From: Oscillospiraceae bacterium
GTDB lineage: Bacteria; Bacillota; Clostridia; Oscillospirales; Acutalibacteraceae
Assembly (NCBI GenBank): GCA_015065505.1
Contig: SVQE01000014.1
Location: forward strand, 1 to 44,028
Reading direction: 5' to 3'
DNA: 44,028 nucleotides
Shown here: piece after piece, positions 18,941 to 36,889 of the stretch
Position numbering within the stretch: position 1 is the first letter of the stretch
Layout: each line of letters starts with the position of its first letter
Program-made: the position numbers and the translations under genes
The notes under the pieces: generated by a model
Database searches by the model: none
What the model was told of the DNA's origin: nothing
The model's input: the letters and a program-made list of their open reading frames with translations, nothing else

Positions 18941-20005
18941 TTACATATAAAATTCTTTATACCACTGCGCAAAGCTTTTTAAGCCGTCTCTCAGCGGTGT
19001 ACTCGGTTTAAATCCGAAATTCTTTTCAAGCTCGGATGTATCGGCAAAAGTAACCGGAACATCACCAGCCTGCATGGGAACAAGCTCTTTGTGTGCTTCA
19101 AAATCATAATCAGGCGGAAGAACGCCTGCGCTTATGAGCTCTTCCTGAAGAATGTTGACAAACTCAAGTAGATTTTCAGGTGAGCTGTTGCCTATGTTAT
19201 AAACAGCATATGGCGGAATCGGAAGTCCGTCCTCGCCTGTTTTCTTTTCGGGTGCACCCTGCATAACCCTTATAACGCCTTCAACAATATCATCAACATA
19301 TGTGAAATCGCGCAAACAGTTTCCGTAATTGAATATCTGAATTTTTTCGCCTTTAATCAGCTTATTTGTGAACCCGAAATAAGCCATATCAGGCCTTCCT
19401 GCAGGACCATAAACAGTAAAGAAGCGAAGTCCTGTCGACGGAATATTATATAGCTTACTGTATGCATGAGCCATAAGCTCATTTGATTTCTTGGATGCCG
19501 CATATAACGATACTGGATTATCAACCTTATCATCAGTTGAATACGGAACCTTCTTATTAGAGCCGTACACCGATGAGCTTGAAGCATAAACAAGATGCTC
19601 AACGGGATGATTCCTGCAAGCTTCAAGAATATTATAAAAGCCGATAATATTGGATTCGATATAAACATCGGGATTCGTTATTGAATAACGAACCCCAGCC
19701 TGAGCAGCAAGATTAACAACAACCGAAGGCTTATAATCATTAAATACTTGATTTATAAGCTCCCTGTCTGCAATGCTGCCCTTGATAAAAATAAATTCAC
19801 TTTTTCTGTCTTTAAGAGAAATGTTATCAATCTCAGATAAACGGAACTCCTTTAAACTAACATCGTAGTAGTCGTTCATATTATCAATACCGATAACCTT
19901 AATATTACTAAAATCACTTAACAAGCGCTTTGTTAAATTCGCACCGATAAAGCCGGCTGCACCTGTTACTAAAACTGTTGTGTTATCTAATTTAATACTG
20001 TTCAT
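18941..20005 (-). CDS. UDP-glucuronate 4-epimerase (extended SDR)
   Basis: This protein has 354 residues. An N-terminal NAD-binding motif TGAAGFIGANL (14-24) is followed by 'NLAAQAGVRYSI', 'SSSSVYGSNKKVP', the catalytic Y-x3-K in SLYAASKKSNE, and 'RFFTVYGPAGRPDMAYF'. This set is diagnostic of the bacterial UDP-glucuronate 4-epimerase group (CapI/LspL/WbnF type) rather than GalE. The enzyme interconverts UDP-glucuronate and UDP-galacturonate. It sits between galU and the thiolase gene, with 22 bases to galU, and so belongs to the cluster's nucleotide-sugar block. The ATG follows GGTGAG. Length is normal and no key residue is missing. Confidence 0.93.
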   Translation of the reverse strand: MNSIKLDNTTVLVTGAAGFIGANLTKRLLSDFSNIKVIGIDNMNDYYDVSLKEFRLSEIDNISLKDRKSEFIFIKGSIADRELINQVFNDYKPSVVVNLAAQAGVRYSITNPDVYIESNIIGFYNILEACRNHPVEHLVYASSSSVYGSNKKVPYSTDDKVDNPVSLYAASKKSNELMAHAYSKLYNIPSTGLRFFTVYGPAGRPDMAYFGFTNKLIKGEKIQIFNYGNCLRDFTYVDDIVEGVIRVMQGAPEKKTGEDGLPIPPYAVYNIGNSSPENLLEFVNILQEELISAGVLPPDYDFEAHKELVPMQAGDVPVTFADTSELEKNFGFKPSTPLRDGLKSFAQWYKEFYM

Positions 20006-20033: not shown

Positions 20034-21290
20034 TTATTTTCCAACTATAAATACATAATTTGTTGTTGCGGTGCCGCCTATATTAAGCATAAGTGCATTC
20101 TTAGGAATTTCACCGTTATGCTTAACCTGATAGCTTCCTGCACTGCCGTTAACCTGCTTGAAAATATCAAGAAACATTCTGCATCCGCTTGCGCCAACAG
20201 GATGACCGCAGCCAATAAGACCGCCGCTTGGATTTATTGGCTTTTCACCGTCAAAAGCAATCACACCGTTTTTGATAGCTTCGGATTCCTTGCCTGGTTC
20301 AGCTATACCAAAAGCAGAAATTGCCGCATATTCGGAAGATGTGAAGCAATCGTGTGTTTCAAAAACACCAATATCATCAACGCTGAGTCCTGAACGACGA
20401 TAAGCGTCCAGAACAGCCTGTCTTGTCCACGGAAGGATATACGGGCTGTCGGGCTGTTCGTGAACCTTTGTTTCGAAAAGCATGGGCGCTGTTCTGTGAC
20501 CGTAGCCCTTAACATACGGCAAATCCTTTTTGCCAAGCTTTTCAATCATTGCTTCACTTGCAAGAACAACAACGGCTGCGCCGTCGGTAACCTGCGAGCA
20601 GTCCGAAACGGCAAGCATTCCGCCTATTGACGGATTTGTTTCATTATTTCTGTTGCTTGCCTGCTCAAAATCCATAAACCAGCTTCTTGTCTGTGCTTTA
20701 GGATTGCGCTTTGCATTACTGTAGTTAATAACGGAAATTCTTGCAAGATTATCAAGGTATTCCTTCTCGTCAAGGTTATATTTTTTTACAGTTTCATCAG
20801 CAAGCTTTCCGAATAACGTCGGGAAGGGATAAGGTATTCCCTTTCCCTCTGTTTCGTAATAAGCCGCCCTTCCGAGAATATCTCCGCAAACATCTGAAGC
20901 AACTGTTTTCATCAATTCAAATCCTACAACAATTGCTAAATCGTAATCTTCGCTTTTAATCTTTGTTATAGCTGCATCAAGTGCAACAGAACTTGATGCG
21001 CATGCAGCCTCATATCTTCCGGAAGGAACACCGTAAAATGCAGGTGATGCCTCGGTCAATAAAGCTCCGAGATGTCCCTGGTCAATATAGTGTTCGGCAA
21101 TAAAGTTACCAACAAAACAAGCAACCTTGTTTTCTTTATTTAAATCAATAATATTCTGATAAGTTATTCCTACCTCATTAAGAGCATCGTCAATTGATTC
21201 CCTTAAAAGAGCAATAACATTTTTTCCTTCTTTAGTCCAATTGCGCTCAAAATCAGTCTGAGCACCGCCAAGCACGAAAACTTTACTCAT
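20034..21290 (-). CDS. Thiolase-family protein (SCP-x-like)
   Basis: This protein has 418 residues with the thiolase fold. Cys97 in [15 protein letters not shown] is the acyl-accepting nucleophile, His313 in [12 protein letters not shown] and His363 in [10 protein letters not shown] are the catalytic histidines, and 'NPSGGLIG' precedes the latter. The HDCF form is typical of the SCP-x-like group (lipid-transfer-type thiolases). These often have less certain chemistry than degradative thiolases: cleaving 3-ketoacyl-CoA or joining two acyl-CoA units. It is coupled to the 3-hydroxyacyl-CoA dehydrogenase gene with a 21-base gap, inside a sugar-nucleotide block. That setting suggests it supplies a short acyl-CoA for sugar decoration; this is inference. 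Confidence 0.88.
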
Positions 21291-21311
21291 ATTCTTCTAC
21301 CGCCTTTCCGA

Positions 21312-22634
21312 TTACTTTGCAAGGATGAATCTTCTGTAGTCATACTTTGATTTTTCAACATTTTCCAGAAGATTGTTTTTGATTATTATTTCGTTTATAT
21401 CACTTGTAAGGCGTTCTTTGCACAGTTTATTGAAATCACAAACTGCACTGAAAGCTTCATACATTGCAATTGGAGGACACCAACGGAAACCTGTAGCCAT
21501 AACGTCATCAGCAGATGAATAGGGACAGCCGGTTTCTTTTGATGCATTCATTGAGTATACAATATATTTAAGCAGCATTTCACAACAGATTTTTGCTTCC
21601 TGTGAATCGCTTTCAATCAGAGTTTTAAACGCACCTGCATAATCACCGAGTTTTAAGCTGTTTTTCATAGATAAAGCAAAATCAAATGTGTAACGCGATT
21701 GATTTCTGTATTCATCCGACTTTATGTCATAAACAAGATGCTGTTTTGTGCCATCATCATTTTTAACGGTTTTATAAACACCGCCTCCGGCTTTTCGACC
21801 GGTTTTGCCTTCGTCAACAAGCTTATTTATATAATCCGGGCAAACAAAAGTGCTTCTTGCATAATCGTTGGTATTTTCATAAATATTATCAACAATGGCC
21901 TTATGCACATCGAGTCCTACAAAATTCGCAGTTACAATCGGAGCCATTGAACGGCCTGAATAACCGCCGAGAATTGAATCTATGTAGTCAATACCGCCGT
22001 TTTCACAGTATTTTTCAGCCTGTTGCATAGCTTCATTAATAAACTGAAAACCGATTCTGTTGCCTAAAAATGCAGCAGTATCAGGAGTTTCAACAACTGT
22101 TCTGCGAAGAACATCAGCTGCATATTTCTTCATAAATTCAAAAATGCTGCTGTCTTTTTCGGTATATTTAGTAGGAATCATTTCACACAATGTGAGTTGA
22201 TATGGCGGGTTAAAGAAATGCATACCCATAAAAGCAGCCCTGTTTTCTTCGGGATAGTTTTCAGCAAGCTTAGTAACTGAAAGTCCCGAAGTTCCCGTGC
22301 ACAATATCTTTTTAAGATTATGCTTTTTAAGTATATCGGAAATCTGCTGATGAATATCATTTTTTATAGACATATTCTCTGCACATGCTTCAAATATTAA
22401 ATCCGAATCCAGAACGCATTCTTCAAGCTGAGAATAGTCCGCAGGAATCATTCTTTCTTTAATACACTCAGCTCTTACAGAGTGATATGCATTATTCTTT
22501 GCAGCTTCAGATTTAGCAATATCGCGTGATACCAGATAAACCTTTGCACTGCCGAAGGAAGCAAATATAGCAGAAATATTCTGCCCCATTGTTCCGTTTG
22601 CACCAAGAATGGTTACTGTTTTAATCTTATTCAT
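21312..22634 (-). CDS. 3-hydroxyacyl-CoA dehydrogenase family protein
   Basis: This protein has 440 residues. The dinucleotide motif reads ILGANGTMGQNISAI (9-23), with Asn-Gly where most members have GxGxMG. 'SDLIFEACAENMSIK' and the His of MGMHFFNPPYQLTLCE (about 148) match the catalytic part. A C-terminal helical domain with 'DTAAFLGNRIGFQFINEAM', 'GLDVHKAIVDN' and 'GKTGRKAGGGVY' is typical, and an additional helical stretch follows to the end. The family oxidises 3-hydroxyacyl-CoA, or in reverse reduces 3-ketoacyl-CoA to 3-hydroxyacyl-CoA. With the thiolase next door it could make 3-hydroxybutyryl-CoA from acetyl-CoA. No enoyl-CoA hydratase or acyl-CoA dehydrogenase accompanies them, so full beta-oxidation is unlikely here. 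Confidence 0.88.
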   Translation of the reverse strand: MNKIKTVTILGANGTMGQNISAIFASFGSAKVYLVSRDIAKSEAAKNNAYHSVRAECIKERMIPADYSQLEECVLDSDLIFEACAENMSIKNDIHQQISDILKKHNLKKILCTGTSGLSVTKLAENYPEENRAAFMGMHFFNPPYQLTLCEMIPTKYTEKDSSIFEFMKKYAADVLRRTVVETPDTAAFLGNRIGFQFINEAMQQAEKYCENGGIDYIDSILGGYSGRSMAPIVTANFVGLDVHKAIVDNIYENTNDYARSTFVCPDYINKLVDEGKTGRKAGGGVYKTVKNDDGTKQHLVYDIKSDEYRNQSRYTFDFALSMKNSLKLGDYAGAFKTLIESDSQEAKICCEMLLKYIVYSMNASKETGCPYSSADDVMATGFRWCPPIAMYEAFSAVCDFNKLCKERLTSDINEIIIKNNLLENVEKSKYDYRRFILAK

Positions 22635-25122: not shown

Positions 25123-26142
25123 TTATCTGTTTAAATACATTTTCTCGTAATAATCTTGATATTCACCTGAAATAATGGTTTCCCACCACTCTTTGTTATC
25201 AAGATACCATTGAATTGTTTTTTTAATTCCGTCTTTAAACATTGTTTCGGGCAGCCAACCAAGCTCATTATGAATCTTTGTAGGATCTATAGCATAGCGC
25301 ATATCGTGACCCTTTCTGTCTGCAACATAAGTAATAAGACTCTCGGGCTTGCCAAGCTCTTTACAAATCAGCTTAACAATATCGATATTCTTCATTTCAT
25401 TATGACCGCCGATGTTATAAACCTCGCCAACTCTGCCTTTGTGAATAATAAGGTCAATTGCCTTGCAGTGGTCCTCAACATAAAGCCAGTCACGAACATT
25501 AAGTCCTTCACCATAAACGGGAAGAGGCTTATCATTAAGCGCATTTGCAATCATAAGCGGAATAAGCTTTTCAGGAAAGTGATATGGTCCGTAGTTATTT
25601 GAGCAGCGGCTGATTGTAACAGGCAACCCAAATGTTCTGTAATATGCCAGAACAAGAAGGTCTGCGCCTGCCTTTGATGATGAATATGGTGAGGATGTAT
25701 GAATCGGGGTTTCCTCTGTAAAGAATAAATCAGGTCTGTCAAGAGGAAGGTCGCCGTATACCTCATCCGTTGATACCTGGTGGTATCTCTGAATACCGTA
25801 TTTTCTGCAGGCATCCATAAGAGTCTGAGTGCCGAGAATATTTGTTTTAAGGAAAACACCCGGGTCTTCAATAGAACGGTCTACATGGCTCTCTGCAGCA
25901 AAGTTTACAACAATATCGGGATGCTCTTCTTCAAAAAGCTTTTCAACTGCTTCCCTATCGCATATATCAGCTTTAACAAATCTGAAATTCGGGTTGTCCA
26001 TAACAGGAGCAAGAGTTGAAAGATTTCCCGCATATGTAAGCTTATCAAGACAAACAATTCTATAATCGGGATGTTCCTTAAGCATATGGAATATGAAATT
26101 CGAGCCAATAAAGCCTGCTCCGCCTGTTACTATAATAGTCAT
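25123..26142 (-). CDS. rmlB: dTDP-glucose 4,6-dehydratase
   Basis: This protein has 339 residues of RmlB type. The NAD motif [11 protein letters not shown] starts at residue 6, followed by '[12 protein letters not shown]', the catalytic T125-D126-E127 in [11 protein letters not shown]153-x3-K157 in SPYSSSKAG, and '[19 protein letters not shown]'. It converts dTDP-glucose to dTDP-4-keto-6-deoxyglucose, the branch point for rhamnose (via RmlC) and for 4-amino sugars (via the VioA-like aminotransferase in this cluster). The start overlaps the rmlA stop by 4 bases (ATGA) and has an AGGAGG site, so rmlA and rmlB are coupled. Confidence 0.97.
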
Positions 26143-27038
26143 TCTTTTATTCCTCCTAATGTTTCATCAGTTGCAACCTTTTTAAGATACTTACCGTAAT
26201 CTGATTTACCGTATTTATCGGCAGATTCAATAAGCTTTTCTTTTGATATCATTCCCATACGGAATGCTATTTCTTCAGGTGCAGAAATACGGATACCCTG
26301 CTGCTTCTGAATTGTCTGAACAAAATCAGCTGCATCAATAAGGCTTTCCATAGTTCCTGTGTCAAGCCAAGCAAAGCCTCTTCCAAGAAGCTTAACATCA
26401 AGCTCACCGCTTTCAAGGAAAACTCTGTTTAAATCGGTTATTTCAAGCTCACCACGAGCAGACGGTTTCTGTGCCTTTGCATATTCAACGCAGCGGTTAT
26501 CATAGAAATATAATCCTGTTATTGCCCAGCTTGATTTCGGATGCTCGGGTTTTTCTTCAACAGAAAGCACCTTACCTGTTTTATCAAACTCAACAATTCC
26601 GAAACGCTCGGGATCGTCAACGTGATAACCGAAAACAGTTGCTCTGTGATTCTTTTCTGCATTTTCCTTTGCCTTTGCAAGAATAGAACCAAAGCCTGCG
26701 CCATAGAAGATATTATCCCCTAAAATCATAGCACAGCAATCGTCGCCAATGAACTCTTCACCGAGAATGAATGCCTGAGCAAGTCCGTCCGGTGAAGGTT
26801 GAACCTTATAACTGAGTTTTATTCCATACTGGCTGCCATCACCGAGCAATCGCTCAAAATTCGGCAAATCAGTAGGAGTTGAAATGATAAGAATATCATC
26901 AATTCCTGCAAGCATCAAAGTGCTGAGAGGATAATAAACCATAGGTTTATCATAAATAGGAAGCAATTGCTTCGAGGTTACCATTGTCAGCGGATATAGC
27001 CTTGTTCCGCTGCCGCCTGCTAAAATAATACCTTTCAT
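26139..27038 (-). CDS. rmlA: Glucose-1-phosphate thymidylyltransferase
   Basis: This protein has 299 residues. The signature '[16 protein letters not shown]' opens the protein. '[18 protein letters not shown]', the metal site 'ILGDNIFYG' and '[22 protein letters not shown]' complete the RmlA pattern. It joins glucose-1-phosphate and dTTP into dTDP-glucose, the first step for the dTDP-deoxysugars here. It overlaps rmlB by 4 bases and follows the VioA-like gene by 9 bases. Length and motifs are normal. Confidence 0.97.
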
Positions 27039-27047
27039 AATAGTTCC

Positions 27048-28142
27048 TCACTTCTTTAAGATTACATCACAGATTCTTTCAACATCTTCAACGCTTAAAT
27101 CAGCATATAGCGGAAGAGTTAAAACCTTTTGGGATATTTCAAGCGCAACAGGAGTCTGATTTGCATCATATATATCCTTATAACAATCAAATGTATTGGT
27201 TATCGGATAGAAATATTTTCTTGCAAGAATTTCATTATCAAGTAAATTATTTGCAACTTCATCCCTTGTAAGTCCGAATACATCCTTATCAAACAAAACG
27301 GGAAAATATGCATAATTTGTCTGAACATCATCCTGTGGCTTGCATATAGCGATACCTTCAATACCGCTAAGTCTTTTTCTGTATTTCTCAACAACTTTTT
27401 TTCTTTTTGCAATTTCATCATCAAGGTGGCGAAGATTGCATATTCCCATAGCAGCACAGAATTCATTCATTTTTGCATTTGCGCCAACAGCATCAACGGT
27501 TTCAGGTCCGCGGATACCAAAGTTTTTAAGTCGGTATAAATCAAGACCGTATGCGTCATCACTAAAACACACTGCTCCGCCTTCTATGCTGTGGAAAACT
27601 TTAGTAGCGTGGAAAGAAAACATTGAAGCATCTCCAAACGAACCTATTCCCCTGCCCTTATATTTAACACCGAAAGCATGGGCAGCATCATAAATTACTT
27701 TAAGATTATGCTCCTTTGCAATTCTTTCTATTTCTTCAATATTGCAGATATTCCCATATACATGAACAGGAATTATAGCACTTGTTTTTTCTGTTATGAG
27801 TGCTTCAATCTTACCGACATCAATTGTATAAGTATCGGGGTCAATATCGCAGAAAACGGGAGTTAACCCGTTACGAACAATAGCATGGGTTGTTGAAGCG
27901 AAGGTAAACGGAGTTGTTATAACCTCGCCGGTTAATCCCATTGCCTGAATTGCCATTTCAAGCGCCATATGACCGTTGCAGAATAAATCAATCTTTTCTA
28001 CGTCAAGATATTCAATTAAATCAGCCTGAAACTTTTTATGCTTCGGACCCATATTGGTTAGCCATCGGCTATCCCATATTTCTTTAATTTCATTGCAGTA
28101 TTCTTCAAAATACGGCATTGAAGAACGGGTTACATTAATCAT
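27048..28142 (-). CDS. DegT/DnrJ-family sugar aminotransferase, VioA-like
   Basis: This protein has 364 residues. The PLP site has Asp152 (VIYDAAHAFGV) and Lys181 in SFHATKVFHSIEGG. 'RWLTNMGPKH' near 26-35, 'GEVITTPFTFASTTHAIVRN' and 'IIPVHVYGN' resemble VioA-type aminotransferases, which transaminate dTDP-4-keto-6-deoxyglucose to dTDP-4-amino-4,6-dideoxyglucose (viosamine). The gene lies just before rmlA and rmlB, which make that substrate. Alternatives within the family are the 4-amino-galactose (Fuc4N) or 3-amino isomers. The acylating enzyme that usually follows could be the GNAT protein at 40815-41891. The start, ATG at 28142, has a TAGGA site. Confidence 0.87.
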   Translation of the reverse strand: MINVTRSSMPYFEEYCNEIKEIWDSRWLTNMGPKHKKFQADLIEYLDVEKIDLFCNGHMALEMAIQAMGLTGEVITTPFTFASTTHAIVRNGLTPVFCDIDPDTYTIDVGKIEALITEKTSAIIPVHVYGNICNIEEIERIAKEHNLKVIYDAAHAFGVKYKGRGIGSFGDASMFSFHATKVFHSIEGGAVCFSDDAYGLDLYRLKNFGIRGPETVDAVGANAKMNEFCAAMGICNLRHLDDEIAKRKKVVEKYRKRLSGIEGIAICKPQDDVQTNYAYFPVLFDKDVFGLTRDEVANNLLDNEILARKYFYPITNTFDCYKDIYDANQTPVALEISQKVLTLPLYADLSVEDVERICDVILKK

Positions 28143-28151
28143 AATATTATC

Positions 28152-29561
28152 CTACTCAATTACGTAATTGCCTCTATATTTTTTATAACTTCTAATAGCA
28201 AATATTATTCCTAACAAAACCCATCCGGCAACAATTATCCATTCCTGCCATGTTAATGAGCAATTAGTTCCCGGAATAATATACATTCCTGCCATTACGC
28301 CGGACATCAAGACAGCAATTGTACCAACAATTCTATAATGCTTTATTTTGTACGGTCTGTTCATATCAGGCATCTTTTTTCTAAGTCTCAAAAATGAAAG
28401 AGAAACCATGCAATATGCTAAACAACAAGTAAAGTTAGCAGCGTCAACAACCCAAATCAACATAGTTCTTCCGAAGAAAGGAGAAATAATCGACAATGCA
28501 CCAATTAATAATAATGCAGTTATTGGTGTTTTATTTTTACTATGTAATTTTGAAAAAACTTTAGGAAGCATATTTGATTCAGCCATCGAATATATTGCTC
28601 TACTTCCACCGATAAGAAATGAATTCCAGCTGGTAATAATACCGCAAAGACCCCCTATGATTAAAATCTTTGCCATTGCACTACTATTAAAAGCTTTTGC
28701 CATTGCATCAGCAGTTACGAGACCTGTTGTATTCATAGAAGTTGAAATATCTTCTGAATTAAGTATATATCCAACTGCAAAAACTATTAAAACATAGAAT
28801 GCAACTGCCAGAACAATTGAAAGAAGCATAAGTTTTCCGATTTTCTTCAAAGGCACTTTAATCTCTTCTGCTGCCTGAGGAATAACATCAAATCCAAAGA
28901 AAAAGAACGGAGTCATAATAGCTACTTTCAAAATATTCATAGTAACTTCATTACTGTTTGAACCGATAAAAACCTGACCGTTTAAGTTGCTTATATCACC
29001 TGAAAAAGCAGAAGCAGCTACTAGAACAATACCAACAGCAGCAATTATAATTGTAAGTAATTTTTGGAGAATCGCTGCCTTCTTTGTACCTATAATATTT
29101 AGAATAACTACCAACGCGCTCATTACAATTGATACAATTACCCAACTCCAATATACATCAAAACCGTTAACAGTATACATGTATCCTTTTAAAATATTTG
29201 GAAAGATATACTGGAGTATTGTTGGAAATGAAACTGCTTCATAACAAACAACACCTATATAACTGAGTATTATTGCCCATGTGCATATATATGAACCTAC
29301 AGGTCCAAATGCCTTGAAACTAAAAACATGCTCGCCTCCGCATAACGGCATTGCTGTTGTTAATTCAGCATAACATAGTCCAACGAAATAAATCATTATT
29401 CCGCCAATCAAAAACCCGATTATAGTACCTAAAATTCCGCCTTGCTGAATCCACATTCCCGATGAAACTACCCAGCCCCAACCAATCATTGCTCCAAAAG
29501 CAACAACGAGAATGTCACTGGATCTTAACACCGGATTGAATTTGCTCTGGTTATCATTCAT
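28152..29561 (-). CDS. APC-superfamily amino-acid permease
   Basis: This protein has 469 residues and about twelve membrane helices. The start is the ATG at 29561, six bases after GTGGAGGAG; an upstream GTG lies inside the ribosome site. The first helix carries 'AFGAMIGWGWVVSSG', the unwound substrate site of APC transporters, followed by 'YAELTTAMPLCGGEHVF' and 'FFFFGFDVIPQAAEEIK', common to the family. It would import or exchange an amino acid or amine at the cytoplasmic membrane. A permease in the middle of a glycan cluster is unusual. Lying 27 bases after the opine-type dehydrogenase, it probably serves the amino-acid branch formed with the two ATP-grasp enzymes. Confidence 0.9.
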   Translation of the reverse strand: MNDNQSKFNPVLRSSDILVVAFGAMIGWGWVVSSGMWIQQGGILGTIIGFLIGGIMIYFVGLCYAELTTAMPLCGGEHVFSFKAFGPVGSYICTWAIILSYIGVVCYEAVSFPTILQYIFPNILKGYMYTVNGFDVYWSWVIVSIVMSALVVILNIIGTKKAAILQKLLTIIIAAVGIVLVAASAFSGDISNLNGQVFIGSNSNEVTMNILKVAIMTPFFFFGFDVIPQAAEEIKVPLKKIGKLMLLSIVLAVAFYVLIVFAVGYILNSEDISTSMNTTGLVTADAMAKAFNSSAMAKILIIGGLCGIITSWNSFLIGGSRAIYSMAESNMLPKVFSKLHSKNKTPITALLLIGALSIISPFFGRTMLIWVVDAANFTCCLAYCMVSLSFLRLRKKMPDMNRPYKIKHYRIVGTIAVLMSGVMAGMYIIPGTNCSLTWQEWIIVAGWVLLGIIFAIRSYKKYRGNYVIE

Positions 29562-29588
29562 TGATAACTCCTCCACATCATTTATTCT

Positions 29589-30686
29589 TTATTCAACAAC
29601 TCCGGTCTGAAGATAATTCTTAATTTGATCAACTGTCATATTATCCAGACCAACCTTTTCTAATGTGCGTCCGGTTGCCCAGTAATTTTCATTCTTTAAA
29701 GCACCTGCAAGATTAACAACAGATTGCATTAAAGGCGTTTTTACTCCGGCTGAGGCAGCAACACTCGACATACATACCAAAGTGTAAGGAGCATCCTCAA
29801 CTAAATATCTTCCGTTCAAATCATTAGGACCTTCGAGGGGTAAAAAGATATCTGTGCTTCCTTGAATACATTCATAGACAGTATCTTTTCTCGGACAATA
29901 GCCCATATTGTAAAGCCTGTCTTTAATATCAATTTCTTCATATCCAAACGCTTTGCATATATTTTTGCGCTCATCATCAATTAACTGAATAACATTTCCG
30001 ACCGATGGAGTAATACCTTCTTTATAGTGATAGTGCTTTTTGTAGTATTCAATCTTACCTGCATTTAATACTACCGGTGCCGGATGTGTTGTTCCGTTAC
30101 CGTTATTAAGTCCGGTTTCTAAAACATCACTCATCATCTTTAAATTTGGATATAAAGGATGAATCAAATCATACATTTCCTGGTTATAAACAGCCGGAAA
30201 AGCCGCAAAGTACATAACATCAGTAATAAGAGATATATTAACACCGTCTGTACCAACTCTTCTTGCTGTATATGGCAATGTGTGTACCTCGGCGAGTTTA
30301 ACACCTTCAAGTTTGTTGTTATCTCTTAATACCTTAGCAAAAACAAGTGCACCGCCTGTGCTTCCGGGTGACAAGAATATCTTATCACCTTTCTTAATAT
30401 AAGGCGCAATTTTTTTGGCAACATCTTCATGTGCAAAAGATGGTAAAACGGGGATTATTAAATCATAGTCACTCATTGCAACATCGATATCATTAGTTAT
30501 TTCATAAATCGGAATGTCACCTACTGGACCAACTCCGGTAGTTTTAATAATTTTAGTATCTCTTATTGCATCGAAATTCTTTTTGTGTTCTTCCTGAACA
30601 AACAAGGTTATTTGGTGTCCTCTTGATGAAAGATCGGCAGCAGTAGCAAAAGCACCGTTTCCACATCCAATTACAGTTATTTTCAT
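29589..30686 (-). CDS. Opine/octopine dehydrogenase family protein
   Basis: This protein has 365 residues. An N-terminal NAD(P)-binding fold (VIGCGNGAFATAADL, 5-19) is followed by the opine-dehydrogenase domain, including the catalytic-type His201 in NGTTHPAPVVLNAG. Family members reductively join the amine of an amino acid to a 2-keto acid such as pyruvate, giving an N-(1-carboxyalkyl) amino acid, or run the reverse. The gene is flanked by an APC permease and two ATP-grasp ligases, with 16-27-base gaps and an AGGAGGT site. No nicotianamine-synthase-like partner, as in staphylopine-type metallophore loci, is present. Glycans decorated with N-(1-carboxyethyl)-alanine or -lysine are known in enterobacteria, so a sugar-decorating role is possible; this is inference. 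Confidence 0.87.
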   Translation of the reverse strand: MKITVIGCGNGAFATAADLSSRGHQITLFVQEEHKKNFDAIRDTKIIKTTGVGPVGDIPIYEITNDIDVAMSDYDLIIPVLPSFAHEDVAKKIAPYIKKGDKIFLSPGSTGGALVFAKVLRDNNKLEGVKLAEVHTLPYTARRVGTDGVNISLITDVMYFAAFPAVYNQEMYDLIHPLYPNLKMMSDVLETGLNNGNGTTHPAPVVLNAGKIEYYKKHYHYKEGITPSVGNVIQLIDDERKNICKAFGYEEIDIKDRLYNMGYCPRKDTVYECIQGSTDIFLPLEGPNDLNGRYLVEDAPYTLVCMSSVAASAGVKTPLMQSVVNLAGALKNENYWATGRTLEKVGLDNMTVDQIKNYLQTGVVE

Positions 30687-30702
30687 AATATACCTCCTAT
30701 TA

Positions 30703-31986
30703 TTACAATTCTATACTTTCGGGATTAAACTTTTCCATTAACATGGATTTACCATCTTTGTTTAATACATCAAAAATTCCATTCATATAGTTAATTGTTG
30801 ATTTTACATCATCAATAGATTTCTCAACAAAATGAATAGTTAGAGCGGGCTTGTCAACGATTCTATCATTATAGTAATTATTGCCTTCAAAAGCGTTTTG
30901 AATTGTTGCAGCAACAGAGTCGATTTTTCTTATATCTTCAAGACCGATAATCTTGTTCACTGTCTCATCTTTTCCGCTAAGTAAAAAATTATACGAAACT
31001 GCAAAATCTTTGAAAATTGCTATCTTCTTATCAATACAATCAATATCATTAATCATTTTTCCCGTTAAAGCATATCGGATTACCATATCAATTGAATTGA
31101 ATTTCAGAACTTCTTCCTCAAGATTATAAAAAGCACCGCCCAATCTACAACCCATTTCATAAAATGTTATCTTATTCCCATCGAAATGACCCTGTAGGAA
31201 TATTAATCCATCGGTAAAGCCTTCTGCTTTAAACATATTAATTACTTTATCATTGATTTCTTCATAGTATTGATTCAGAAACAGAGATGGTGCAATACTG
31301 AAATTTGCGTAATTTACGGCACTTAATCTATCTGAACAAGTATATCTGTCAAAGCTCTCAAGAAGTCTAAATTCTCCATCAACAGCAATATAATCAAGTA
31401 AGAATTCTCTTCCTGTGATATATTGCTCAACTAAAACAATATCCGTATCAGAAAAACTCTTTGCCTTAGAAAACTGTTCTTTAAACTCACACACATTATA
31501 ACATACACCCGCACCTCTTGAACCGCTTGCATCAAGAGGCTTAACAAAAACAGGAAAAGCAATACTCTCAATAAGCTCATCACTTAAGTCACTTCCAATA
31601 AAAAGTGTTTCTGGAACCGGGACATCATACTTTTTACAAGTTTCTTTAAAAACAGTTTTATTTGTTGCCATATTTATCATTTTTTCTGTTGCATAATATG
31701 GCAAGTTCAATCTTTTACAAACCTCATAACATGGTTTCAATAATACATCAAAAAAGCCTGTAGTGACTCCGTCGACCTTTTCTTTTCTGCAAAAAGCAAC
31801 TATTGCATCAACATCAGTGGCATCAATATCAACACCTCTATCCGCAATTTTTTTTCCAATCGAGTCTTCGTAGAAGTCAGCTGCAATAACATATGCGCCC
31901 ATTGCTTTTGCATGATTAATTATTTCTACAGCAAGACCCTTTGCTCCAAGCACTAAAAGCTTTTTACCCTCAAATTCTTTGCTCAT
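30703..31986 (-). CDS. ATP-grasp ligase (first of two)
   Basis: This protein has 427 residues. An N-terminal Rossmann-like domain (LLVLGAKGLAVEI near 10-22) is followed by an ATP-grasp domain with the nucleotide Lys in 'FPVFVKPLDASGSRGAG' and a metal site reading EMGCRLGG. In the usual E-x-N-x-R the Asn is replaced by Gly; related glycan-cluster proteins that I recall show a similar EMGxRL form. A C-terminal extension of about 130 residues follows. ATP-grasp enzymes activate a carboxylate as acyl phosphate and join it to an amine or thiol. It lies 16 bases upstream of the opine dehydrogenase, so an amino acid or opine may be its substrate. The ribosome site is AAAAGGAG. Confidence 0.85.
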   Translation of the reverse strand: MSKEFEGKKLLVLGAKGLAVEIINHAKAMGAYVIAADFYEDSIGKKIADRGVDIDATDVDAIVAFCRKEKVDGVTTGFFDVLLKPCYEVCKRLNLPYYATEKMINMATNKTVFKETCKKYDVPVPETLFIGSDLSDELIESIAFPVFVKPLDASGSRGAGVCYNVCEFKEQFSKAKSFSDTDIVLVEQYITGREFLLDYIAVDGEFRLLESFDRYTCSDRLSAVNYANFSIAPSLFLNQYYEEINDKVINMFKAEGFTDGLIFLQGHFDGNKITFYEMGCRLGGAFYNLEEEVLKFNSIDMVIRYALTGKMINDIDCIDKKIAIFKDFAVSYNFLLSGKDETVNKIIGLEDIRKIDSVAATIQNAFEGNNYYNDRIVDKPALTIHFVEKSIDDVKSTINYMNGIFDVLNKDGKSMLMEKFNPESIEL

Positions 31987-32030
31987 TAATTCACTCCTTT
32001 TTTGCTTTCAGATTATTAATGCATTTAGAT

Positions 32031-33056
32031 TTATTCATTAAGAAAAATGATATTTATATCCTTTTGTAATAAACAATTTTCTTTGTAATCAAATATTCTT
32101 TTATCATTTTCTTCATTATTAATCCAATTAATTATTGCTTTAGGTAAGTTTACACCTGCCATATGGCTAAAAGGATATCCTCCACCGAAACGAGCATTCA
32201 TTTCCAATACAAACACTTCATTATTATCCGATAGAAAAACATCAACATCTAAATTTGATATATGTTTTATATGCTTCGACAGCTCTCTACCCGTTTTTTC
32301 GAAAACTCCGTTATTAACTGTTTGTGCACAATCAGTTTCACCGGCACGCATAGCAATTTTCTTCTTAACAATTGTATTTTGATATAAACCATCTAAATCA
32401 TTAATAACATCCATGCCATATTCCTGTCCATTAATCTTTTGTTGGATTAACACACAATGGTCTTTATCAATTGAAGATTCATATTTCAAATAAGTGTTAT
32501 GAACTTCTCTTTTCACTTTTTTATAGAATACAGTTAATTCATCAATATTATCAGCTTTAAAAACTGAAATTGAACCCATTCCCCAACGAGGCTTAACGAA
32601 TAACGGAAATGATAATTCACCTTCTTTAATATCTTTTTCAGCTTCTGCTAAATCTATATAGGTTTTAGGAACATTAAAATTGTTTTTTAAAAGAAATAAA
32701 TACGTTTTCCATTTATCATTGCAGATTTCGACGGTACTAAGATTAGAAACAATTACATTTATACCATTTTTGTTAAACAATTCCTTATTTTTAGACAAAA
32801 TCGGCAAATCAATATCAAAAAGAGATATAATTACTTTAATATTATTCTTTTTACAATATTCAATTAGAAAAGGAATATAATTTTCATCATATATCAAAGG
32901 GGTAACAACGCATCCGTCTGCAACTCTAAATGCAGGACTTAATTCTGAACTGTTAGCCACAAATACCTTGCCTTTTCCATTTAACACATCTTTAAAATAG
33001 TTCACCATATAACTTCTTCGGCCAACAGAAGTTAATAGAATGTTCACATTATTCAA
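32031..33056 (-). CDS. ATP-grasp ligase (second of two), CarB-like
   Basis: This protein has 341 residues. No ATG suits the ribosome site; the TTG at 33056, seven bases after TGGAGGA, gives the start M-N-N-V-N-I-L-L-T-S. The N-terminal 'LLTSVGRRSYMVNYF' and the ATP-grasp domain match short CarB-like ATP-grasp proteins. The domain carries the lysine in 'FPLFVKPRWGMGSIS' and an intact metal motif 'VLEMNARFGGGYPFSHMAG'. Such proteins occur in capsule loci of many bacteria, with mostly unknown substrates. It pairs with the other ATP-grasp gene 44 bases downstream and differs clearly from it. Two ligases could form two successive amide bonds, for example opine to sugar amine, or amino acid to amino acid. 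Confidence 0.84.
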   Translation of the reverse strand: MNNVNILLTSVGRRSYMVNYFKDVLNGKGKVFVANSSELSPAFRVADGCVVTPLIYDENYIPFLIEYCKKNNIKVIISLFDIDLPILSKNKELFNKNGINVIVSNLSTVEICNDKWKTYLFLLKNNFNVPKTYIDLAEAEKDIKEGELSFPLFVKPRWGMGSISVFKADNIDELTVFYKKVKREVHNTYLKYESSIDKDHCVLIQQKINGQEYGMDVINDLDGLYQNTIVKKKIAMRAGETDCAQTVNNGVFEKTGRELSKHIKHISNLDVDVFLSDNNEVFVLEMNARFGGGYPFSHMAGVNLPKAIINWINNEENDKRIFDYKENCLLQKDINIIFLNE

Positions 33057-33103
33057 AGCACAATCCTCCACATATTAAGTCAAAAAGAAATATTTACATA
33101 TAT

Positions 33104-34660
33104 TCAATTTCCCATCTTCAATACTTTCATCTTAATAATATTGAGATAATACCTCAGATACGGACTTTTTATATTAACTAATAAAAATACTAAATTCGGA
33201 ATAATAGCAGTTGCAACCATCATAATTATTAAATTTAAAATATTTGAATCAGTAAAACAAAGTATCGGCTTTATAAACTGCAGCAGCAATGATATTCCGA
33301 TAATTAAAGCAACTCTGTAAATATACAGCGCATAATATGAAAACGGCTTTTTGCCAAATGCGTGTTTTAAGATAATATATGGGTCATACCAACCGCTTAC
33401 GCCTAATCTTGAAACAAGCGTTCCTAAGAATACGCCGATAATTCCGAGAGGTTTTGCCAGAATAATCGATACAGCAAGATTAACTACTGCTGTGAAAATA
33501 TATCTGTATTTTCCCTGAACAAATAAGCCGAGTGTTGCCCTGATAGTCCATAGCGTTCTCATTATTCCGCATACATAGAAATTTGCACAAATAATTGCTA
33601 CGCATAAATTATCAAGAATATAATTCTCTCCAAGCCATAAAACAATAAACTCATTATATAATGTGTATAAAGCAATTGTTGAAAAGCCATAGAGCCAGAA
33701 ATTTAAAAAGTCAACGCGTTTAAACAAATTATAATTAGACTCATTGTCGTTGTTGGCAAAGAAATGCCCCAAACTTGCCTGAATAGATTTAAACAACTGG
33801 ACAAGCACCATCTCAACAGAACCCATAATAAGAACATAGTTTGAATATATTCCAACTATTACAGTGCTTATCATTGATGAAATAATAAGGTTATCCGTTC
33901 CGTTTAAAGCAACATTACCTATGTTTTGCAAAAACAGCGCTTTAACATCTTCAATAATTTTATTCTTATCAGCCTTATCAATCGGTACTGCCGATTCAAA
34001 CATATATGGATAAAGTTTATCAACCTTTCTTGCAACTAAAACATTTTTAATCAGAGTGCAGCAAACCTGCGTAACAAGGAAGAATATATATGCCTTGAAA
34101 ACAATAATCAGTATTACCTGAACAACAGACTTAATTACATTTGTGATGAATTCATATCTTGATACGAGGTAGTTCCTTTGATCTGCATTTAGAAAGGTCT
34201 GTTTATATGCAAAAAACAGATATGACGCAACCGTGTCTGCCAAAAATAGCGAATAATAAACAATAAGCTGAGTGTTATTTACAAGTGTGATATCAGTAAC
34301 CAAATACTTGAGAAAAGGTATCAAAGCACAGCCAACGGCTAATACGATTAAGCCAATAACCCTGTAAACCTTTTTGAAGAACTGCATTATTGCCTTTATT
34401 CTTTCCTTATCATCATCAACAATCGGCTTATATAAGCTATAAACAACTGCAGCACCAAAACCGCATTCAGCAAGCGATAAAATTGTTAAAACATTTGTGT
34501 ATAAACCGTTTATACCTAAATACTGTTCACCCAGAAATTTGATAAAAACAGTTCTTACGCCAAATTTTATAACAATATTCAACACTTGAGATATTGTGCC
34601 ATATGCAAAATTCCTTGAAGAATTCTTAATATAGCTACTTCTGTCTAATGAATCTTTCAT
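33104..34660 (-). CDS. Wzx-type polysaccharide flippase
   Basis: This protein has 518 residues and about 12-14 membrane helices. The start has the typical flippase pattern: a basic 'SSYIKNSSRNFAYG' before helix one, then 'RTVFIKFLGEQYLGINGLYTNVLTILSLAECG', seen here in pieces within residues 35-68. Charged loops such as 'KQTFLNADQRN' mark the cytoplasmic side. Members of this MVF/MATE-like family move undecaprenyl-linked repeat units across the membrane. It belongs with the EpsG-like polymerase as the export and polymerisation pair of a Wzx/Wzy-type pathway. The ribosome site is weak. Confidence 0.9.
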   Translation of the reverse strand: MKDSLDRSSYIKNSSRNFAYGTISQVLNIVIKFGVRTVFIKFLGEQYLGINGLYTNVLTILSLAECGFGAAVVYSLYKPIVDDDKERIKAIMQFFKKVYRVIGLIVLAVGCALIPFLKYLVTDITLVNNTQLIVYYSLFLADTVASYLFFAYKQTFLNADQRNYLVSRYEFITNVIKSVVQVILIIVFKAYIFFLVTQVCCTLIKNVLVARKVDKLYPYMFESAVPIDKADKNKIIEDVKALFLQNIGNVALNGTDNLIISSMISTVIVGIYSNYVLIMGSVEMVLVQLFKSIQASLGHFFANNDNESNYNLFKRVDFLNFWLYGFSTIALYTLYNEFIVLWLGENYILDNLCVAIICANFYVCGIMRTLWTIRATLGLFVQGKYRYIFTAVVNLAVSIILAKPLGIIGVFLGTLVSRLGVSGWYDPYIILKHAFGKKPFSYYALYIYRVALIIGISLLLQFIKPILCFTDSNILNLIIMMVATAIIPNLVFLLVNIKSPYLRYYLNIIKMKVLKMGN

Positions 34661-34693: not shown

Positions 34694-36889
34694 TTAAAGA
34701 TTTGAAGAGTAATAATAAGAAGGATTTTGCCCCATTGCAATTACGCAATCAAATTCTTTAACTATTTCAACATTATTTTTAATTAACTCTCTTCCCTTTT
34801 CGCTGTGAATTGTAACCACCGACATTCCTTTATCGTCATCAAGGGAATTATCAAGCATATTCAGTCCCCAGAAATCTCCGATAATAATATCTGCACCGCA
34901 ATTACCTGCCTTGAAATGGCAGTTATGACAGGATGGACGGAGTGATTTGTTGTGATAAAAAGCATTCATATAGCTATCATTTGCAGGAGCAACGCTGAGC
35001 TTTTCGCCACTCTCAAAGCAATATGTCATATAATAAGCTTTCCATCCCGTTGTTTTGTCTCTGAAATCAACTGAAATAATTTTGCTTTTGTGTTCCTCTT
35101 CAAGCTTTTGTAAATGTTCTTGCCACAGCTGAGGAGAAGGCACTCCGTGACAAACAACTCCAGCAGTAAAGAATCCATCTTGGTTACCAACAATTCTCTT
35201 AACAGCAGCAACCTGACAGGGAGTTCCGGTAAATAGAACTCTTTTACCGCTGCTTAAATCACTTTTTATTGATTCAAAAGCATCTGCTATTGAACTCTGA
35301 ACATATTTTGCTTTTCTGATTTTTGATAATTCATCGTTACTGCGAACTCTTATGTGAGACACCGAGAAGTCATCGTTAAATGCGGCTCCGTAAACTGAAT
35401 CCCCGTTAATGAAACCATTGCTGATTGCTGTTATTACGCCGCCTGAAGAGCTCAGTTTCATCACTTCTTCATTGTCCTTAATTCGCATAGCATATGCTTT
35501 TTGCGGTTTTTCAGCTTCTTTTGCATTAAATACAGGACAAATTTTTTCGCATTTATTGCAATTTATGCACAGCTCGTTGTTTAACTCCGGATAATAGAAA
35601 CCGTCTTTTAATACACTGCTAAGTGCCTTTGTCGGACAAGCCGAAACGCAAGCCATGCAACCTGTGCAATCATTTGTGTTGTATATATCAAATTTTGTGT
35701 TTACAAAAGCAGAATTATTATCAGCAGCTTTAAATACTTCATCAAAATAGCCTTTAGCTTTTGATTTTATCTTTTCAAGCTTATCATCAATTCCCGTATA
35801 ATCAATATTAATTGCATCATCATTGATGTTTTCAAATTTTCTGCATTGAAGCTCAAGACTACCAAGAAGAGTGTTTAGTCTTGAACCCATTGAGCGTTTG
35901 CCTTCAACCCTGTCAAAGGTTACAAACGCCTTCTTATACAGAATTGAAAATACAGTTGAATGAAATGAATCAGTACAAATCATCTGAGCGTTTTTAATAC
36001 AGTAAACAAACTCAGCGGGATCGCAGGTAAGATATTCCGGAGACAAAATATCAAGAAGATTAATAATTTCTAGATTATACTTCTTGGAAAGCTTATTAAT
36101 GTATTTCTGATAACGCTTTGTTCGGTTTCCGAGGAAATAGGTTAATAAGTATTTCTCCGGTAACTCGAAATCGGGCTTTTTGGCAAGCTTGTCCCAGGCG
36201 GAAATATCAACAAGCATTGTCGGGTCTGCTGTTACAGCAGAATCTCTGCCTGTTAATTCTTTAATAATCTGCTGACCCGCTTCCTCTCTTACCGAAAGAA
36301 AACGAAAGCTGTTTAACCATTTTGAATAATCCTCTCGCCTGAGCTCGGGAATTTCACTCACACCAAAGCTTGCAGATAATGAAGCTCGCTTTTCTTCAGG
36401 AGCAAATTGCAGAAAATTGTTCCCCGCTACAAAGGGATAATACGGATTCCATACCTGGTCCGAGCCAGCAAAGAACATAGCAAACTCATTAGTCCATGCA
36501 TTATCTCTTTCATTATACGGAATTATTTTCTGAGCAAAATTCAGATATTTATAATCAAAGGAATTATACTTGTTTTCTCTTATTTTGAATTTTTTTGCAA
36601 GCATTCCCCTGTTATTATACCAATATGAAAACTGACTGATTACGCCTGTATCTGTGTTTTTTATCTGGCATCTGTTTATCAAAAACGACTTTGCAAATGC
36701 CTTTATGTAAGATGGATTAAGCTTTTTTATTGTGCTTATATTTTCTGCTGCATTTTTTGATACAATTTCATACTTAAATGTGTAAGGTGAAAATCCGTAT
36801 TCAAGGCATAACTGCTCTGCAGCATAATTCTGAAGCTTATTTCCGAAGTTCTGTCCGTTATATAAGCTTACTATTCCAACCTTTTTCAT
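34694..36889 (-). CDS. Polysaccharide pyruvyltransferase fused to FrhB-like iron-sulfur protein
   Basis: This protein has 731 residues in two parts. Residues 1 to about 395 are a WcaK/CsaB-type pyruvyltransferase (start 'GIVSLYNGQNFGNKLQNYA', and 'MFFAGSDQVWNPYY'). They are followed by a two-cluster ferredoxin (about 403-450, CTGCMACVSACP and CINCNKCEKICP) and an F420-hydrogenase-beta-like domain (about 455-725, 'SSSGGVITAIS', 'FTGTPCQVAAVKR', 'VCHGVPSPQLW', 'RPSCHNCHFK'). The first part puts pyruvate ketals on sugars from phosphoenolpyruvate. FrhB-like proteins bind flavin and iron-sulfur clusters; in glycan loci their substrate is unknown. Fusion or adjacency of the two is known in gut Firmicutes and Bacteroidetes. 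A redox step on the sugar or acyl group is possible but inferred. Confidence 0.9.
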   Translation of the reverse strand: MKKVGIVSLYNGQNFGNKLQNYAAEQLCLEYGFSPYTFKYEIVSKNAAENISTIKKLNPSYIKAFAKSFLINRCQIKNTDTGVISQFSYWYNNRGMLAKKFKIRENKYNSFDYKYLNFAQKIIPYNERDNAWTNEFAMFFAGSDQVWNPYYPFVAGNNFLQFAPEEKRASLSASFGVSEIPELRREDYSKWLNSFRFLSVREEAGQQIIKELTGRDSAVTADPTMLVDISAWDKLAKKPDFELPEKYLLTYFLGNRTKRYQKYINKLSKKYNLEIINLLDILSPEYLTCDPAEFVYCIKNAQMICTDSFHSTVFSILYKKAFVTFDRVEGKRSMGSRLNTLLGSLELQCRKFENINDDAINIDYTGIDDKLEKIKSKAKGYFDEVFKAADNNSAFVNTKFDIYNTNDCTGCMACVSACPTKALSSVLKDGFYYPELNNELCINCNKCEKICPVFNAKEAEKPQKAYAMRIKDNEEVMKLSSSGGVITAISNGFINGDSVYGAAFNDDFSVSHIRVRSNDELSKIRKAKYVQSSIADAFESIKSDLSSGKRVLFTGTPCQVAAVKRIVGNQDGFFTAGVVCHGVPSPQLWQEHLQKLEEEHKSKIISVDFRDKTTGWKAYYMTYCFESGEKLSVAPANDSYMNAFYHNKSLRPSCHNCHFKAGNCGADIIIGDFWGLNMLDNSLDDDKGMSVVTIHSEKGRELIKNNVEIVKEFDCVIAMGQNPSYYYSSNL

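Follow-up and report, generated by a model that had tools for sequence, protein, structure and literature searches.

We describe a gene cassette in a 44,028-nt contig (SVQE01000014.1; hereafter the window, meaning this entire contig) of a 2.31 Mb Oscillospiraceae metagenome-assembled genome (MAG; G000, 88.95% complete). Four consecutive intact open reading frames on its minus strand encode, in transcription order, two ATP-grasp ligases (AG2 and AG1), an opine dehydrogenase (ODH) and an APC-type amino-acid permease, followed by a DegT-type aminotransferase, RmlA and RmlB. The reading we favour, with a probability of roughly 60%, is that an opine is made by the cassette and amide-linked to 4-amino-4,6-dideoxyglucose (Qui4N) of a gut Clostridia surface glycan, whose repeat unit would be decorated in this way. 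RmlA, RmlB and the aminotransferase would generate dTDP-4-amino-4,6-dideoxy-D-glucose (dTDP-Qui4N). The permease would import an amino acid, which ODH would couple to a 2-oxo acid, likely pyruvate, in a reductive step to give an N-(1-carboxyalkyl) amino acid (opine). AG1 and AG2 would form one ATP-driven amide bond each, one ligase placing the opine (or an amino acid) on the sugar 4-amine and the other adding a second unit, and the decorated sugar would enter the glycan. All of this chemistry is predicted from sequence: the identity of sugar and substrates, the order in which the ligases act and the attachment of the opine to the sugar.

Families and conservation of the cassette

AG2 (32031–33071; likely TTG start at 33056 behind GGAGG, the position at which the original prediction had ended its region) matched PylC-like_N (2.4e-28) and ATP-grasp_3 (7.2e-14) in Pfam and passed the cut-off of the NCBIfam family NF009404 (PRK12767, carbamoyl phosphate synthase-like ATP-grasp; 355.2 bits versus 316). 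Its nearest solved relative is 2pn1 (4.1e-45), and its translation carries the metal-site motif EMNAR. AG1 (30703–31986) is a divergent ATP-grasp ligase that matched CPSase_L_D2 (3.4e-8), stayed under the cut-off for all 25 NCBIfam families shown of 38, and gave weak matches to L-amino acid ligase structures (3vot, 0.00019; 4wd3, 0.00024). Residues K110, K149, E187 and R281 of AG1 were conserved in 32 of 32 aligned homologues. A scan of viral contigs with AG1 yielded zero relatives, and structure models of AG1 and AG2 built from three-row alignments were unusable (mean pLDDT 52.6 and 49.0).

ODH (29589–30686) belongs to the Octopine_DH family (PF02317, 1.3e-36; 126.3 bits versus a Pfam gathering score of 30). 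Its nearest solved relative, matched over the whole length (1.2e-57), is 1bg6, N-(1-D-carboxylethyl)-L-norvaline dehydrogenase (CENDH). N197, H201 and D298 of ODH align with N198, H202 and D297 of 1bg6, which we take to be the catalytic residues of CENDH. The permease (28152–29576; likely ATG start at 29561) matched AA_permease_2 (2.1e-39); its best NCBIfam family, TIGR00909, was under the cut-off (174.5 versus 556.8 bits). The gaps measure 44 bases from AG2 to AG1, 16 from AG1 to ODH, 12 from ODH to the permease (27 if counted from the permease ATG) and 9 from the permease to the aminotransferase, and a flippase-like gene, probably wzx, precedes AG2 by 47 bases.

The genes beside the permease point to the acceptor. 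The aminotransferase (27048–28142), a probable dTDP-4-keto-6-deoxyglucose 4-aminotransferase of the DesI/VioA type, matched DegT_DnrJ_EryC1 (8.6e-101); its best solved relative was 2po3 (4.1e-65), which we take to be DesI, and its best NCBIfam family was TIGR04427 (PLP_DesI, 328.2 bits). Next to it lie the substrate genes for RmlA (glucose-1-phosphate thymidylyltransferase, 26139–27038) and RmlB (dTDP-glucose 4,6-dehydratase, 25123–26142), both above equivalog cut-offs (TIGR01207, 474.6 versus 360.65 bits; TIGR01181, 502.3 versus 365.1 bits). The likeliest product of a DesI-like aminotransferase together with RmlA and RmlB is dTDP-4-amino-4,6-dideoxyglucose, and the ligation acceptor is therefore probably the Qui4N amine.

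ODH was used to scan 84,980 species genomes by short exact peptides, a search that could find close relatives only; it returned two, both 88% identical, in the MAGs Oscillospiraceae bacterium SIG556 (locus L075) and Clostridia bacterium RGIG2515 from goat jejunum (L076). These share one genus (g231), distinct from that of the window but in the same family. The three aligned N/H/D residues are kept in both, and so is the order AG2-AG1-ODH-permease-DegT aminotransferase-RmlA, at 61–88% amino-acid identity to the window (in L075/L076, AG2 68/67%, AG1 61/62%, ODH 88/88%, permease 81/82%, aminotransferase 79/78%, RmlA 78/78%). The flippase and the upstream glycosyltransferases are different, the gene at the flippase position resembling another flippase-like reference (60–61%), and RmlB lies at a greater distance from the unit. 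Since the order recurs in two other MAGs, the cassette is not an assembly accident. Of 12 gene comparisons between the window and L075/L076, 10 were saturated, leaving synonymous divergence (dS) undefined, and the other two gave dS values of 2.7 and 6.3; conservation of order despite such divergence cannot be mere recent copying, which argues for joint function.

The original prediction of a permease–opine dehydrogenase–ATP-grasp–ATP-grasp block is thus borne out: the block is real, intact and consecutive, and all 3 close instances (window, L075 and L076) show linkage to glycan genes, each combining ODH, amide ligases and the predicted Qui4N route in one glycan locus. Its description as a self-contained amino-acid branch has to be given up. 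The conserved unit is larger than four genes and takes in the 4-aminotransferase and RmlA, and the AG1 family is itself linked to DegT genes (see below).

An opine dehydrogenase might also serve a free, exported opine such as a metallophore of the staphylopine kind. The original prediction had argued against this from the lack of a nicotianamine-synthase-like (NAS) gene, and indeed PF03059 gave 0 matches in the window's own 88.95% complete genome, the same search finding a match in 1 of 14 control genomes; no search was aimed at exporters or importers of metallophores. The close relatives of the ODH block sit in glycan loci. We rejected the metallophore, given the missing NAS gene, and regard free opine export in general as highly improbable.

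Linkage of AG1 to aminotransferases and the wider ODH family

We asked how often relatives of AG1 lie near DegT genes. AG1 matches at E = 1e-35 or better were found in 28 of 398 family genomes; for the comparison, 24 of 27 non-self loci were used (L075, L076 and a third g231 locus, L086, were excluded since ODH had led to them), with 40 of 48 non-self RmlC loci as control (the bottom 8 by rank were omitted, and several stretches come from short contigs). A DegT gene lay within 7.5 kb in 14 of the 24 AG1 loci versus 1 of 40 RmlC loci (Fisher p = 5e-7, an optimistic value because related genomes are not independent). A DegT gene at least 45% identical to the window aminotransferase was present in 7/24 versus 0/40 loci, with glycosyltransferase matches equal (12/24 and 23/40). 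An earlier AG1 sample, with matches in 35 genomes, had given a DegT match in 12 of 20 neighbourhoods examined. The linkage of the AG1 family to DegT genes points to a 4-amino sugar as the acceptor.

ODH at large behaves differently from its close form. ODH matches were found in 11 of 394 order genomes at 1e-20 and in 10 of 398 family genomes at 1e-30, counts that both include the window's genome. Among the 19 non-self ODH loci, 9 were near an ATP-grasp gene, 8 were not and 2 were cut by contig ends, as judged with five ATP-grasp references, three of them Pfam-checked proteins from two of the loci themselves (L087 and L088), a set that other ATP-grasp families would escape. None of the 8 loci without ATP-grasp matched a glycan reference gene, save for one weak TRAP-like match. 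The ODH family as a whole was rejected as a marker of glycan loci on this count of 8 in 19. Separation of the four genes' relatives, away from glycan genes, had been named in the original prediction as the outcome that would speak against it; this is absent among close relatives and present in the wider ODH family, which is not tied to glycans as its close form is.

The 8 unlinked loci favour a catabolic role, in which an opine or amino acid enters through the permease, ODH works oxidatively and the position in a glycan operon is incidental. The same role is suggested by one AG1-bearing locus (L124), where a permease 82% like that of the window adjoins MmgE/PrpD and D-2-hydroxyacid dehydrogenase genes. 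That locus, however, is itself a single-strand run with DegT, two AG1 homologues, a glycosyltransferase, the D-2-hydroxyacid dehydrogenase, MmgE/PrpD, a protein with no Pfam assignment and the permease, and in the window and its relatives the order with ligases and sugar genes is kept across saturating divergence. We consider a catabolic role very unlikely. As a separate observation, MmgE/PrpD genes adjoin AG1-bearing loci twice (L124:11053–15672 and L130:11453–12811), in L124 between the dehydrogenase and the permease.

In the ODH tree, the 9 loci near ATP-grasp genes plus one more (L085) formed three fully supported clades: that of the window, a mutase-linked clade with G at the position of N198 of CENDH, and a clade paired with TupA or ATPgrasp_ST ligases (L087:7096–10215, L088:4898–9550, L021:651–2823 and L023:3140–8420). 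ATP-grasp linkage required 4 changes on the tree versus 6.6 after shuffling, with 11 of 500 shuffles as low, so the ATP-grasp-linked forms may have one origin. PGA_cap-like matches were seen in L087, L088 and L023, and the TupA/ATPgrasp_ST-paired clade possibly makes opine amides of another kind.

Exchange of acid-supply genes beside a constant acceptor half

Of the 7 genomes of genus g231 in the set, 3 have an ODH match and 4 an aminotransferase match. One of them (G616, locus L086) carries, in order, AG1 and ODH (31% and 28% identical to the window), a 631-residue protein (family c24), aminotransferase, RmlA and RmlB; its contig starts just upstream, where an AG2 may lie. Compared with L075/L076, the acceptor side is nearly constant (aminotransferase 91–93%, RmlA 89%, RmlB 95%, the last versus L076), whereas the supply side is not (AG1 33%, ODH 30%). 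We conclude from these sequence identities that in g231 the supply half has been exchanged beside a constant acceptor half.

The c24 family, of about 630 residues, has four copies next to ODH (L018:8962–10863, L015:6550–8457, L085:1209–3098 and L086:3299–5194) that are 66–78% identical to one another and gave no Pfam, NCBIfam or PDB match. All four contain DAHTMG, an instance of DxHxxG, presumably the B12 motif, and a BtuR-type ATP:corrinoid adenosyltransferase gene lies downstream in L085 and L015. c24 is probably a B12-dependent mutase of an unnamed family, residing in glycan cassettes.

Three ODH lineages occur alongside AG1 and a DegT gene: the window clade, the L018/L086/L015/L085 group (the L085 stretch being cut before any AG1) and the pair L068/L137. 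In L137, AG1, ODH (21% identical to the window, 69% to L068) and aminotransferase (69%) are contiguous. Other AG1 loci carry other genes with the ligases. The slot from AG1 to the aminotransferase is occupied by a DctM transporter in L065 (aminotransferase 65%, DctM, AG1, AG2 52%) and by a CitMHS transporter in L122 (AG1 34%, CitMHS, aminotransferase 60%, RmlA 71%, RmlB 84%). L109 has a DapB-like protein between AG1 (43%) and an aminotransferase (61%), and L130 has an AMP-binding enzyme with AG2 (54%) and AG1 (31%). A protein of ~321 residues also recurs beside AG1 homologues (L057:6152–7117, L086:1–891, L122:5863–6837 and L109:10743–11708); it had no Pfam match in the three copies scanned and looks like a shortened aminotransferase.

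In our reading, these loci combine an acceptor half that stays constant with ligases and with an acid supply that varies. The candidate supply genes are opine dehydrogenases from three or more lineages, a probable adenosylcobalamin mutase with adenosyltransferase, a DapB-like reductase, and DctM, CitMHS or APC transporters. A broader proposal, to which we give somewhat less than even odds, is that Oscillospirales-type Clostridia decorate their surface amino sugars with unusual acids through a general system of exchangeable parts, built from constant RmlA, RmlB and 4-aminotransferase, one or two AG1/AG2 ligases and a swappable acid supply. Swapping the supply would give close relatives different decorations, much as serotype switching does, and the opine-type variants would be the first predicted dedicated opine-glycan genes in Gram-positive-lineage bacteria.

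Several results weigh against an opine amide on Qui4N. The AG1 family is without the Asn of ExNxR, presumably the usual ATP-grasp metal-site motif (0 of 32 aligned homologues have it). The aminotransferase does not reach the DesI cut-off of 650 bits, which makes both the C-4 position and the gluco configuration tentative. ODH was found in just 1 of the 24 AG1 loci (L137; 0/40 RmlC loci), which means that AG1 needs no opine, and 10 of the 24 show no DegT gene. The permease of L124 that resembles that of the window has no ODH with it. A smaller test within the window's genus and G716 pointed in the same direction as the AG1 comparison but was weak, with an ATP-grasp match in 5 of 9 aminotransferase loci (one of them a 3.3 kb contig) versus 2 of 8 RmlC loci. 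A UDP-uronate-type epimerase also travels nearby, keeping an amide of a uronic acid in play.

In that alternative, an opine, or a lysine opine, would form an amide between its free amine and a uronic acid carboxyl of the glycan, as in Providencia rustigianii O14, and the aminotransferase would serve another sugar. The epimerase (SDR19, 18941–20005), by its look able to make a UDP-uronate, has a 76% relative in both L075 and L076; it is under the cut-off of each of 24 NCBIfam families listed. Locus L087 has an ODH from a different clade, flanked by a TupA-type ATP-grasp gene and by glycan genes; this locus also carries the same epimerase, gave no aminotransferase match and looks nearer to a uronic-acid amide than the window does. 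There is chemical and enzymatic precedent as well: an opine amide of a uronic acid is already described (available part of PMC10609480), and a TupA-like domain amidates glucuronate in Campylobacter capsule (available part of PMC11800379). However, the window has AG1 and AG2 as its ligases instead of TupA, and L018, L086 and L137 combine ODH, AG1 and aminotransferase with no SDR19 match in the stretch examined (L086 and L137 being short contigs). The linkage of AG1 to aminotransferases would also be left unexplained. We judge attachment to a uronic acid unlikely for the window.

The frequent occurrence of AG1 without ODH could mean that the ligases add an amino acid or peptide to the amino sugar and that ODH acts elsewhere, for example by joining the sugar amine to pyruvate, the carboxyl of the resulting N-(1-carboxyethyl) amino sugar then being ligated to amino acids. 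Gene positions would suit this scheme: in L137, ODH is flanked immediately by AG1 and the aminotransferase, and in L086 it sits beside the genes for mutase and aminotransferase. On the other hand, we know of no opine dehydrogenase that acts on a sugar amine; the closest solved relative, 1bg6, uses an amino acid and pyruvate, and an amino-acid permease adjoins ODH. Such a division of labour appears quite unlikely to us, and an opine amide on the Qui4N amine remains the reading we carry forward.

Surroundings of the cassette and comparison with known systems

Every listed gene from 44006 down to 15953 lies on the minus strand, and the whole looks like one surface-glycan locus, in which family searches identified glycosyltransferases, an EpsG-family protein, a flippase-like protein and further sugar genes besides the cassette. 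The contig end at 44028 falls within the locus, whose first genes are missing. The flippase-like membrane protein (33104–34660), outside the conserved unit, had zero Pfam or NCBIfam matches; its look, and similar proteins that tblastn matched in other glycan loci, suggest Wzx. Base composition of the region showed low GC only, as usual for glycan loci. Promoter-like sites (65 versus 77.6 expected) and terminator-like sites (14 versus 10.3 expected, sd 2.6) were at about chance levels and were not used as evidence. The gene at 34694–36889 encodes a fusion of a polysaccharide pyruvyl transferase domain with two 4Fe-4S motifs and, at the C terminus, an FrhB/FdhB domain (Pfam). Amid the dTDP-sugar genes, 20034–22634 encodes a 3-hydroxyacyl-CoA dehydrogenase-like protein and a thiolase (PRK06289, 554 bits versus a cut-off of 375), neither of which was matched in L075 or L076; Escherichia coli O123 bears 3-hydroxybutyryl-alanyl Qui4N (available part of PMC10609480).

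Opine amides of O-antigen sugars are known chemically, and this kind of decoration is otherwise known from Gram-negative O-antigens. We recognised no description of genes for them among the open-access papers listed by our searches, outside which most subscription papers fall, and the available parts of PMC5560731, PMC11167607 and PMC2824669 had no bearing on such genes. Because the cassette is compact and offers a dehydrogenase that can be assayed, two ligases and an evident acceptor, its pathway lends itself to in vitro tests. Replacement of the supply half within one genus points to modular variation of surface chemistry, which may have consequences for phage and immune recognition.

The nearest known product is that of Providencia alcalifaciens O35, in whose O-antigen Qui4N is N-acylated by N-[(S)-1-carboxyethyl]-L-alanine (alanopine; available part of PMC10609480, its reference 48). 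The predicted product class is the same, an opine amide on 4-amino-4,6-dideoxyglucose of a surface polysaccharide, the comparison being one of products and not of genes, and the proposed mechanism would resemble the pathway that O35 must possess. In contrast to the Gram-negative lipopolysaccharide of O35, the window would specify a Clostridia glycan, with two ATP-grasp ligases and a permease. The O-antigen of P. rustigianii O14 contains an N-epsilon-(1-carboxyethyl)-lysine amide of galacturonic acid (available part of PMC10609480) and shares with our prediction an opine amide-bound to a glycan. There, however, the link runs through the opine amine to a uronic acid, an arrangement to which L087, with its TupA ATP-grasp, ODH and uronate-type epimerase, is nearer.

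At the level of single enzymes, the window ODH resembles CENDH over its whole length and in its N/H/D residues but, unlike CENDH, sits in a glycan operon. AG2 belongs by its family cut-off with the PRK12767/PylC-like ligases, and AG1 resembles L-amino acid ligases in weak structure matches only; AG1 differs from known ATP-grasp equivalogs in meeting no curated cut-off among those shown and in having no Asn at the usual metal site. The TupA-like amidoligase domain of Cj1438 from the Campylobacter jejuni capsule (available part of PMC11800379) is, as predicted for AG1 and AG2, an ATP-grasp amide ligase dedicated to a surface glycan, but it acts on a uronic carboxyl and is of a different ATP-grasp family.

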